From an uncultured Lachnospiraceae bacterium (lineage in GTDB: Bacteria > Bacillota > Clostridia > Lachnospirales > Lachnospiraceae), in NCBI GenBank assembly GCA_949155905.1, contig CASCWU010000001.1:1-64000 (forward strand): 64,000 nucleotides of DNA, in the 5' to 3' direction. The translations under genes were made by a program, and so were the position numbers. The notes below the pieces were generated by a model. That model saw only the letters and a list, made by a program, of their open reading frames with translations, had not been told where the DNA came from and ran no database searches. Shown piece by piece: positions 33,889-38,732 of the stretch (position 1 is the stretch's first letter; each line of letters starts with the position of its first letter).

Positions 33889-35247
33889 ATGAGTGAAAAA
33901 GCAAGAAAAAGTTCGATTGACATGACCCAGGGGAGTCCGTTCCGGCTTTTATTGTCGTTTACATTGCCTATGCTGTTAGGAAATATTTTTCAGCAGTTTT
34001 ACAGCATGGTGGATTCCATTGTAGTCGGAAGATTTGTAGGGGTAGATGCGTTTGCAGCAATCGGCGCCACGAGCTCGGTATTGTTTTTGATGATATCGGT
34101 TATTATTGGGTTTACCATAGGAATATCGGTTGTAACAGCACAGTTTTTCGGTGGAAAACAAGAGGAGATGCTAAAAAAGACAGCCGCTACGGCGACAGTG
34201 CTTTCGGTGCTGATGGCAGCGGTTTTAGGGGTGATTGGAATTGCTCTTTCCCGTCCGGTGCTGACTCTGTTACATACCCCGGAAAATATTATGAAGGATG
34301 CTGCTTTGTATCTGACCTTTAATTTTGCTACCTGCTTGGCGCCGATTTCTTATAATATGGCCTCTAATATGCTGCGCTCCTGCGGAGACAGTAAAACGCC
34401 GCTTTATGCGCTGATCATTTCCTCGTTGGTCAATATTGTGTTGGATTTGGCATTTGTCATTGTATTTAAAATGGGTGTTATGGGGGTAGCGCTGGCAACG
34501 GCGGTTGCCCAGGGGCTTTCTACGATATTTTGCATAATACGGATTTATCAGCATTTTCCGTATATGCGCTATTCCCGAAGGGAGCTTAGGATTTATAGAA
34601 CTATTGTAAAAAATGTTTTGAGGATTGGGATTCCTATGTCGATACAAAATATTTTTACTTCTTTTGGAATGATGGCAGTACAGGGGATTATCAATCCATT
34701 CGGTTCTTCTGTGGTAGCAGGCTATGCAGCCGCCAATAAGGTGGATCAGATAGGGATGCAGCCGATGATGGCGATTGGAAATGCGATGTCCACTTATGCC
34801 GGGCAAAATTTCGGCGCCGGGAAAACAGATCGGATTCAGGAGGGAGTAAAGAAAGCCTCTCTGCTTGGTTTTGTAGTGTGTGGTCTGATTGGTCTGCTGC
34901 TCATTGTGGCAGGACGTTTCGTGGTACAGCTAATGGTCTCAGATGCAGAGGCTGAGGTTATCCAGATAGCAAGCGAATATTTGAAAATCGTAGCCGCCTT
35001 TTATATACTGGGCAGTCTGGTTTATATTTATACCAATACGCTGCGTGGGATGGGAATCGTAGCAATCCCGATGGCTGCCAGCTTTTTGGAGCTGGGGGTT
35101 AAGGTTGCCGCTGCTTTTTGCCTGGCTCGTTTTTCAGGTTATCATGCGATCTGGTTTGCCTGGCCAATGGCCTGGGCAGCCTCTGCAGTGCTGCAAATTG
35201 GCTATTATTATGCAGGGGGATGGAAAAAGAAGCTATATACAAAATAA
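33889..35247 (+). CDS. MATE-family multidrug/metabolite efflux transporter
   Basis: ATG 33889 follows AAAGGAG; the frame is open upstream to 33865 without a site. The 452-residue polytopic protein has the twelve-helix MATE layout. Conserved stretches include PFRLLLSFTLPMLLGNIFQQFYSMVDSI-type helix 1 (split across residues about 17-45), RSCGDSKTPLYALI and NTLRGMG in equivalent positions of the two halves, and AYAAANKVDQI. It probably exports drugs or cationic metabolites using Na+ or H+. The substrate is unknown; the structured leader suggests ligand-dependent expression. Confidence 0.9.
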   Translation: MSEKARKSSIDMTQGSPFRLLLSFTLPMLLGNIFQQFYSMVDSIVVGRFVGVDAFAAIGATSSVLFLMISVIIGFTIGISVVTAQFFGGKQEEMLKKTAATATVLSVLMAAVLGVIGIALSRPVLTLLHTPENIMKDAALYLTFNFATCLAPISYNMASNMLRSCGDSKTPLYALIISSLVNIVLDLAFVIVFKMGVMGVALATAVAQGLSTIFCIIRIYQHFPYMRYSRRELRIYRTIVKNVLRIGIPMSIQNIFTSFGMMAVQGIINPFGSSVVAGYAAANKVDQIGMQPMMAIGNAMSTYAGQNFGAGKTDRIQEGVKKASLLGFVVCGLIGLLLIVAGRFVVQLMVSDAEAEVIQIASEYLKIVAAFYILGSLVYIYTNTLRGMGIVAIPMAASFLELGVKVAAAFCLARFSGYHAIWFAWPMAWAASAVLQIGYYYAGGWKKKLYTK

Positions 35248-35315
35248 AATCCGGCAAAGCCGGATTCTCCGCCTGCGGCGGGCTGTGGAAGCAGTGCTTT
35301 TCTGGCCCGCCGCAG
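35248..35315. terminator. Two strong hairpins between convergent genes
   Basis: AATCCGGC-AAA-GCCGGATT (35248-35266) is directly followed by an 11-base-pair stem CTGCGGCGGGC (35273-35283) with GCCCGCCGCAG (35305-35315). They separate the MATE gene from the minus-strand PepSY gene and can stop transcription from both sides. Confidence 0.65.
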
Positions 35316-36726: not shown

Positions 36727-36757
36727 GTTAATCCAGGAAAACGGGATTTTATTGCAT
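36727..36757 (-). promoter_or_regulatory. Candidate ECF sigma promoter, copy 1 (five-PepSY gene)
   Basis: On the minus strand ATGCAATAAAATCCC is followed after eight bases by GGATTAAC. The identical bipartite sequence stands before the sigma gene (38677-38707). TGCAAT to GGATTA is 16 bases, fitting a -35/-10 pair. It lies about 70 bases upstream of the start codon. Confidence 0.7.
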
Positions 36758-36787
36758 GGATTTTAAAAAAATTTAGGAAAATTTGTT

Positions 36788-38074
36788 TTAGTCATCCCAG
36801 TCCTTTTCATATTTCAAAATAGAGCCATCATAGGCATCAATTTCATATTCATATTCATAGCCGCCGCTTTTAAATTCGATTTCATAATACGTATCACCGT
36901 CATCGTCATCCTGATCCAGCTCCCATTCCAGTTCCCGGATAGTATCTTCGGTTACGCCGGCATGGGAGAAAGCAGTAGCAAGCGCCTGTTCAGTTCCAAT
37001 GTAGCTTGTATTGTCGGAGGCAGAGCTTCCGGCAGGATAACCCTGCTTATCATCTGTATCCTGACGAGGGTCGTGATAGTCCCAGTTATCGTCTGCTTCC
37101 TGACTGAAGCTGATAATAGCTCCTGTCACAGCATCAACATCATAGTCATATTCGTAGCCCTGACAGTCAAACTCAATATCATATACCATAACGCTATGCT
37201 CATATTCGAGTTCTATTGAAAGATCAAGCAGATCGTATTGGCTTAGTCCGGCATGGGCAAGGACTGCCAACAGAGCGTTATTTTCTCCGATATAGGCTTT
37301 GTCGCTGGCCGTTCCGACAGAATTGATGTTGTCCAGGCTTAGCTGGGAGGACTTGGTCAAAAGGTTTAGCTCATTGATAGAAAGCGGAACCAGATCCTCA
37401 AAGCGATATAGGCTGTTGGCGGAGGTGATCTGTTGAATAAGCTGTGCTTTGCCTGCGGTAATACCATAGGTATCCGCCAGAGCCTGCAGTTCTTTGTCGA
37501 GAGAAAAGGTTTGGCTTAAAACAGCGCCGCTAAAAGTCTCTGTCTGCAAGAGCCCATCGATCTCCTTTGTCAGCTTTTCCTGGAGCTTGGCACCTTCTAT
37601 CGGATCGTTGTCGTCTACGCTTACTAGGATAGAGTTGGTAGTTTCATTCAGATAGCTCTTTCGGAGCATGGAGCCAATCAGGGCATTGATCGTAACATCC
37701 AGAGAGTTCCCGGTAAAGTCCATATCGCCGATGACATTTCGCGCCTCCTCATTTCGGGCTGTGACAGATAGCACTTTTTCCTTGGGATTGACCTTGATTT
37801 CGATGCTCGGATTGACGTCCAGCGATATCGTGGCTGCCACGGCCTGTCCGGTCTGAAGCTGCTGCCCAAGGGTAATGCCAAGGACAAACAGGATCAGGGA
37901 GGCTGCTATAAAAGAGAACCGCTTTACCCATCGTCGGTTTGCGGGCTGCTTTTGCGGCAGGAGGATAACCCCGCCCTCCTGCTGGTGGCAATCGGAGAGT
38001 ATGGAATCCAGAACATCTGGGGTGGCGTGAGCAAAGGCTCGCCGTATAGTCTGGTTGATTTCTTTTTCCTTCAT
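36788..38074 (-). CDS. RsgI-like anti-sigma factor with two PepSY domains
   Basis: The 428-residue single-pass membrane protein has a cytoplasmic N-terminus (residues 1-50) that would hold the sigma factor and one transmembrane helix (about 51-70). The RsgI-type extracellular domain follows, starting TISLDVNPSIEIKVN, and then two PepSY repeats (about 265-320 and 355-428). The first reads YIGENNALLAVLAHAG and the second YIGTEQALATAFSHAG. Its start overlaps the end of the sigma gene by four bases (ATGA). RsgI normally controls SigI; here the partner is an ECF-type sigma factor. The PepSY domains probably sense an envelope or extracellular signal. Confidence 0.85.
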   Translation of the reverse strand: MKEKEINQTIRRAFAHATPDVLDSILSDCHQQEGGVILLPQKQPANRRWVKRFSFIAASLILFVLGITLGQQLQTGQAVAATISLDVNPSIEIKVNPKEKVLSVTARNEEARNVIGDMDFTGNSLDVTINALIGSMLRKSYLNETTNSILVSVDDNDPIEGAKLQEKLTKEIDGLLQTETFSGAVLSQTFSLDKELQALADTYGITAGKAQLIQQITSANSLYRFEDLVPLSINELNLLTKSSQLSLDNINSVGTASDKAYIGENNALLAVLAHAGLSQYDLLDLSIELEYEHSVMVYDIEFDCQGYEYDYDVDAVTGAIISFSQEADDNWDYHDPRQDTDDKQGYPAGSSASDNTSYIGTEQALATAFSHAGVTEDTIRELEWELDQDDDDGDTYYEIEFKSGGYEYEYEIDAYDGSILKYEKDWDD

Positions 38075-38652
38075 ACGATACCTTCCTCTCTAAGATAACT
38101 CTGCAGCTTTTTGATAGCACGGTTGTATTTGGAAAGAATGGTAGACAGAGGCAGGGACAAAAAGGAAGCAATTTCCCGGTGCCGGAAGCCGGAAACGGCA
38201 TGTAGGATGACAATCTGTTGCTCCTCGCTGCTTAAACGGGAGAGACAATTCTGAAGTAACAGACGTTCCTCTGTTCCCAGCTGTTCAGGAGCCGGCAGGG
38301 AATACATCCATTCCTCTTCCGGCAGATCGGCAGAATGCTTTTGCTCCCGCAGCTTCTTCCGGCACAGGTTTTTGGCAATCGTTAGAATCCATGCCAAAGG
38401 CTTCCCTAAGGACTGATAAGCATCCGCTGCCAGAAAAATCTGGACATAACAATCATGCAGCACATCCTCGGCATCCTCTGCGTTCTTTAAAATCGAAAGG
38501 GAAAAGCTGTATACAGAGGCCTTTGTCTGACGATAGAGCTCTGCCAGAGCCTCCTGATTGCCGGCGGCGATTTCCGTCAGGTAATGATCCAATAAATCAG
38601 GATCGGGAACGGGAGGTGCTGGCACCGTTGCGGCCAAAAAGAATAGTAACAT
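38071..38652 (-). CDS. ECF-type RNA polymerase sigma factor
   Basis: The 193-residue protein has a sigma-2 region (ALAELYRQTKASVYSFSLSIL and AEDVLHDCYVQIF, about residues 38-72) and a sigma-4 region (LSSEEQQIVILHAVSG and HREIASFLSLPLSTILSKYNRAIKK written here in two parts, about 140-185). AAAGGGG lies 11 bases before the ATG. It is coupled to the anti-sigma gene by a four-base overlap. Its own upstream region carries the bipartite motif also found before the five-PepSY gene, so it very likely drives its own transcription. Confidence 0.9.
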   Translation of the reverse strand: MLLFFLAATVPAPPVPDPDLLDHYLTEIAAGNQEALAELYRQTKASVYSFSLSILKNAEDAEDVLHDCYVQIFLAADAYQSLGKPLAWILTIAKNLCRKKLREQKHSADLPEEEWMYSLPAPEQLGTEERLLLQNCLSRLSSEEQQIVILHAVSGFRHREIASFLSLPLSTILSKYNRAIKKLQSYLREEGIV

Positions 38653-38676
38653 AAATGGTCTGCCCCTTTCTATTCT

Positions 38677-38707
38677 GTTAATCCTCTAAGGGGGGATTTT
38701 ATTGCAT
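38677..38707 (-). promoter_or_regulatory. Candidate ECF sigma promoter, copy 2 (sigma gene)
   Basis: Minus strand: ATGCAATAAAATCCC, eight bases, GGATTAAC, ending 25 bases before the sigma start codon. All 23 fixed positions agree with copy 1, while the eight spacer bases differ, as expected for a true promoter. Confidence 0.72.
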
Positions 38708-38732
38708 AGGAATAAAAAATTTTCTAAATTGG

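Follow-up and report, generated by a model that had tools for sequence, protein, structure and literature searches.

Sigma24C is a sigma factor of the ECF type, and the self-cleavage of RsgI cuts at Asn-Pro. In Clostridium thermocellum, sigma24C is paired with Rsi24C, an adjacent membrane anti-sigma factor of the RsgI type (PMC3990059). Self-cleavage of RsgI followed by intramembrane proteolysis releases the sigma factor, according to work cited in PMC12203970. The stretch of 64,000 nucleotides analysed here (the window), from an uncultured Lachnospiraceae bacterium, carries a sigma gene and an anti-sigma gene side by side on the minus strand. The sigma gene (38071..38652) encodes 193 aa with regions 2 and 4 only, the domain content of ECF (group 4) factors, as judged from Pfam (Sigma70_r2 and Sigma70_r4_2), NCBIfam TIGR02937 (sigma70-ECF, matched above the family cut-off) and an alignment of 19 orthologs. 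Region 4 is present and not replaced by SigI-C, which sets the protein outside the SigI family. Two further ECF features are found, namely a cotranscribed gene for a membrane anti-sigma factor, which overlaps the sigma stop codon by 4 bases and whose product is a putative binding partner, and an autoregulated promoter, as indicated by a comparative footprint. The AAC triad, which is typical of many ECF promoters without defining them, is absent from the -35 element, where nearly all sites have TGCAAT.

The anti-sigma factor (36788..38074, minus strand), recognized by gene overlap, Pfam and ortholog comparison, has a short cytoplasmic part, one transmembrane helix, an RsgI_M domain with a DVNP motif and two PepSY domains. 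RsgI_M (PF23750) was found in all 38 of the relatives scanned, as expected of RsgI-like anti-sigma factors, PepSY in 30 of the 38 by Pfam scan, and DVNP, the Asn-Pro site, is invariant among them. The RsgI N-terminal anti-sigma domain is absent from the Pfam matches of all 38 proteins; the cytoplasmic N-terminus has no Pfam match and therefore differs from the RsgI N-terminal domain as Pfam models it. By analogy with RsgI, we infer that the protein may undergo self-cleavage and intramembrane proteolysis.

The motif GTTAATCC-N8-GGGATTTTATTGCAT occurs at 36727-36757 and 38677-38707, the latter set apart from the sigma ATG (38652) by 24 bases. All 23 of the 23 fixed bases agree and the spacers are unlike, as an earlier note on this DNA had described; 100 dinucleotide shuffles of the window gave a chance expectation of 0. 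That note had seen no third copy, and indeed no additional site with up to three mismatches was found in the window. It had also proposed a genome scan allowing mismatches, which we carried out on the whole assembly (3.57 Mb, 175 contigs, 93.8% complete). The pattern TGCAATAAAATCC-N9-GGATTAA with up to three mismatches returned the two window copies and a single further match with three mismatches, which is at chance level because the reversed-pattern control also yielded 1 match, so that only two close copies are present. A looser pattern added one site on contig C87, which ends in TTGTTA and lies more than about 400 bp from any gene start. As candidates for a third site in this genome, the matches on C87 and C136 were dismissed as chance level. 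The sequences flanking the two window copies are dissimilar, and the pair therefore did not arise by recent duplication of a longer segment.

Conservation of the motif was followed in 80 loci of sigma relatives from species genomes together with loci from family genomes. The element recurs in other Clostridia and lies 5' of orthologous sigma genes in 64 of 88 loci. The logo of 59 distinct sites consists of an A-run followed by a T-run about 10-18 bases upstream, TGCAATAAAA, 12 variable bases and tGCATTAA, and then, a few bases on, T plus purine and AAAGGAG. When 12 gap lengths from 11 to 22 were compared, TGCRATAA-N16-RTTD upstream of sigma was found in 57 loci at gap 16 versus 0-10 loci at the other gaps. 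The GGATTAA of the window is a minority variant of the family's -10 sequence GCATTAA and is common to loci L046 and L048. Roughly one sigma locus in four is without the motif (for example L089 from Hungatella, L110 and L112), so autoregulation through this exact motif is not universal. Two loci of the sample deserve separate mention: a nearly palindromic promoter at L063:2826-2853 is recognized as a sigma site whichever strand is scored and may fire both ways, and a record named Corallococcus sp. MAG (L053) has a sigma locus of Firmicutes type and is probably mislabelled or contaminated.

Projected onto the window, the logo and the scans define two predicted promoters on the minus strand. P1 (38677..38707), the candidate promoter of the sigma/anti-sigma operon, has its -35 element TGCAATAAAA at 38706-38697, its -10 element GGATTAA at 38684-38678 and a predicted start at an A (38671). 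This start directly adjoins the ribosome site, and the sigma mRNA would therefore have a leader of about 20 nt, as is likely for the orthologs too. Upstream lies an A/T tract resembling an UP element (38715..38724), whose A-run and T-run are kept at logo positions -18 to -9. P2 (36727..36757), the candidate promoter of a gene for a protein with five PepSY repeats, has its -35 element at 36756-36747, its -10 element at 36734-36728 and a predicted start at a G (36721); the conserved T-purine initiator of the logo is retained in P1 and P2 alike. The five-PepSY gene likely starts at ATG 36658, which is preceded by AGAAAGGA. ATG 36706 was rejected as the start, as it has no ribosome site and the predicted start of transcription would be 15 nt away from it. 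The interval from the anti-sigma gene to the PepSY gene yielded no terminator, which makes read-through into the PepSY gene probable, with P2 as a second, boosting promoter. An intrinsic terminator-like hairpin follows the PepSY gene (35246..35268, minus strand).

The distribution of the motif follows that of the sigma factor. The family sample of 397 genomes includes 50 with an ortholog of the sigma factor (E<=1e-30), 38 with the motif in its strict form and 29 with both. The strict motif was thus present in 29/50 genomes with the sigma factor versus 9/347 without it (Fisher p=7e-23, a value that ignores the kinship of the genomes and so overstates their independence, the direction being clear). 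The other 21 sigma-bearing genomes are without the strict motif, and the nine genomes that have a motif match and no close sigma ortholog include G217, in which locus L214 keeps a PepSY gene and a sigma-type promoter with no close sigma ortholog at E<=1e-30.

In nine relatives a second sigma site precedes an intergenic element in which no reading frame is conserved. It corresponds to a structured RNA of about 200 nt with a sigma promoter and a terminator, found in Lachnospiraceae in varying gene neighbourhoods (L144-L149, L151, L152, L157, L164-L169 and L171-L174). Its core, an internal string of 22 bases, is present in 11 of the 397 genomes; the genome of the window is not among them, and the RNA is therefore part of the relatives' regulon. 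The promoter stands at about equal distance 5' of the RNA in 10 of the 11 genomes, terminator-like hairpins with T-runs follow it in most of the 11, and the sigma factor is present in all ten promoter-bearing genomes (E<=1.2e-44). The remaining genome, G400 (L170), has kept the RNA core, and both the promoter and the sigma factor (at E<=1e-12) are absent; it looks as if they were lost together. Three more likely copies of the RNA are at L213, L219 and L221, and one isolate among the carriers is the Lachnospiraceae strain 1XD21-70, the source of L069. The fold comprises GAACGGA, a long-range stem of 17-30 pairs and a conserved GCATTACACTCCATCACAC, and most sequences have a hairpin formed by ATCAAG/CTTGAT. 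The 5' arms tend to pair better with their own 3' arms than with those of other genomes, and a mean energy as good was reached in 0/20000 permutations, a test whose independence is weakened by sequence kinship. Reading the element as a small-peptide gene was rejected, since the ATG after GAACGG gives unconserved peptides of 8-38 aa. In Eubacterium oxidoreducens, a second sigma site precedes a non-coding, terminator-ended segment (L103:2412-2700), possibly a diverged relative of the RNA.

Our analysis indicates that the two motifs are very probably promoters of the adjacent ECF sigma factor, which would regulate itself through P1 and the five-PepSY gene through P2. The reading is supported because the footprint occurs at one spacing, the presence of the motif tracks that of the sigma factor, and the motif is missing at the RNA gene of the sigma-less G400. 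On the plus strand the motif also contains an imperfect inverted repeat, AATCC-N9-GGATT, and could in principle be the operator of a dimeric repressor or activator. Both window copies have the AATCC and GGATT half-sites, and a few relatives such as L063 are nearly palindromic. The AATCC arm, however, is unconserved in the orthologs, where positions 10-14 carry little information, the right half varies (GCATTAA, GGATTAA or TTATTAA), and what is conserved is a -35 and a -10 element a fixed distance apart, together with an upstream A/T tract and an initiator, so that an operator is extremely improbable. Promoters read mainly by another sigma factor, with which the local one merely cross-reacts, are a somewhat less remote prospect and still very unlikely. 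The genome has about ten further candidates of the sigma-70 family, and promoters are often shared among ECF sigma factors (PMC4711584). Against this stand the co-occurrence of the motif with the local sigma factor over the 397 genomes, the RNA gene of G400, which lacks the motif in a genome lacking the sigma factor, and the result that no sigma-70 or housekeeping-type promoter was found at P1 or P2. The comparative data thus favour promoters of the local sigma factor, and they uphold both the earlier proposal that TGCAAT-N16-GGATTA is its -35/-10 pair and that of autoregulation with one further target. The 23-base motif of the earlier note stands as a -35/-10 pair and not at its full width: it is too wide because the TCCC after the A-tract is unconserved in the orthologs, and the code is the ten-base TGCAATAAAA plus GGATTAA.

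The predicted target of P2 (35360..36658, minus strand) is a secreted or membrane-anchored protein in which a signal or membrane segment is joined to five PepSY repeats. It was recognized by Pfam and by homology to the anti-sigma ectodomain; a Pfam match to Izumo-Ig was regarded as spurious. The protein matches the ectodomain of its own anti-sigma factor at 38% over 193 aa (E=3e-34). In G088 the promoter serves a two-PepSY protein on another contig, which matches that genome's anti-sigma factor at 55% over 113 aa (E=8e-25) and is similar also to its membrane segment. The target is a PepSY protein in L083, a lipoprotein with an RsgI_M-type region in L094, L095, L098-L102, L105 and L107, a protein with a DVNP region in G207, and a PepSY-type protein in G217 and G418. 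Given the recurrence in G088, L083 and the loci of the L094 type, the main non-self target in several genera is a copy of the sensor domain minus the cytoplasmic part. The copied domain, PepSY or RsgI_M, matches that of the own anti-sigma factor, which suggests that the targets arose as duplicates of the sensor gene. Sigma sites also precede genes with a VTC domain (polyphosphate polymerase type) near the sigma operon (L086:7223 and L010:23) and, at L090:420, a lipoprotein with trypsin-like and PDZ domains that could be a site-1 protease for the anti-sigma factor. Surface-type proteins (L216, L218 and L220) and an MBL-like membrane protein (L212) are further targets identified by sequence reading only. 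Matches in G254 (C1) and in G101/G102 were rejected as targets, as they fall inside a decarboxylase-like reading frame and a sensor-kinase-like gene, respectively.

A circuit can be proposed from these components. At rest, the RsgI_M/PepSY anti-sigma factor would tether the sigma factor to the membrane. Once a signal acts on the self-cleaving extracellular domain of the anti-sigma factor, intramembrane proteolysis would follow and set free the sigma factor, which would fire both P1, driving the sigma/anti-sigma operon and hence autoregulation, and P2, driving or boosting the five-PepSY protein. Because the protein made from P2 is a free-standing multimer of the anti-sigma factor's own PepSY domain, we infer that it may compete outside the cell for the ligand or the protease of the anti-sigma factor, and so end or shape the response. 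Such decoy feedback is a tentative proposal, for which we would put the chances a little below even. We hold a similarly guarded view of the five-PepSY protein as an effector, such as an inhibitor of proteases or a scavenger of metals or peptides, whose likeness to the anti-sigma factor would mean no more than that both use PepSY. Secreted PepSY domains are widespread, and the promoter in relatives also serves surface proteins, the trypsin/PDZ-like protease and VTC enzymes; yet independent genera copy the domain of their own anti-sigma factor, be it PepSY or RsgI_M, and the likeness of the G088 target extends even to the membrane segment, as expected from duplication of a sensor gene.

The chances are about even that the system is an undescribed ECF circuit of gut Clostridia that has the sensor itself as its regulon, with the sigma factor, ectodomain decoys and, in many Lachnospiraceae, a sigma-linked family of structured RNAs of about 200 nt. 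A literature search returned no relevant report of the promoter string or of the combination of ECF, RsgI and PepSY. The promoter code, the sensor-copy targets and the RNA are new; ECF/RsgI pairs were already known. Our data provide a promoter code that can be put to the test for a widespread clade of ECF factors, mostly of uncultured gut and rumen Clostridia, and a conserved structured RNA outside Rfam that is tied by promoter and distribution to one sigma factor. Signal-off control of RsgI-type sensors also becomes testable, since the main target consists of several copies of the sensor's own domain.

Compared with known systems, the locus combines features of several. Like known small RNAs, the RNA of the relatives is encoded as a separate unit that has a promoter and a terminator of its own, but no Rfam family matches it at gathering score and the weak matches are unrelated. 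Like the classical ECF factors of Firmicutes, SigW, SigM and SigX, the sigma factor has two domains, an autoregulated promoter and a membrane anti-sigma factor. Their -35 element is an AAC triad followed by a T-tract, whereas that found here is TGCAATAAAA, with CAAT; the -10 element, GCATTAA or GGATTAA, and the anti-sigma architecture differ as well. With the SigI-RsgI systems of Bacillus and C. thermocellum it shares the RsgI-like central domain with an Asn-Pro autoproteolysis site, a membrane anti-sigma factor cotranscribed with the sigma factor, autoregulation and an A-tract at the -35 element (PMC6056542, PMC4711584). SigI, however, is without the normal region 4 that the sigma factor has here, its promoter code is different, and the cytoplasmic part of the anti-sigma factor lacks the Pfam RsgI N-terminal match of the SigI partners. 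For an RsgI-type partner that does not belong to the numbered SigI series, as here, the sigma24C-Rsi24C pair is a precedent (PMC3990059). Compared by description, Rsi24C has a GH5 carbohydrate module, whereas the sensor here has PepSY domains and is copied by its target.
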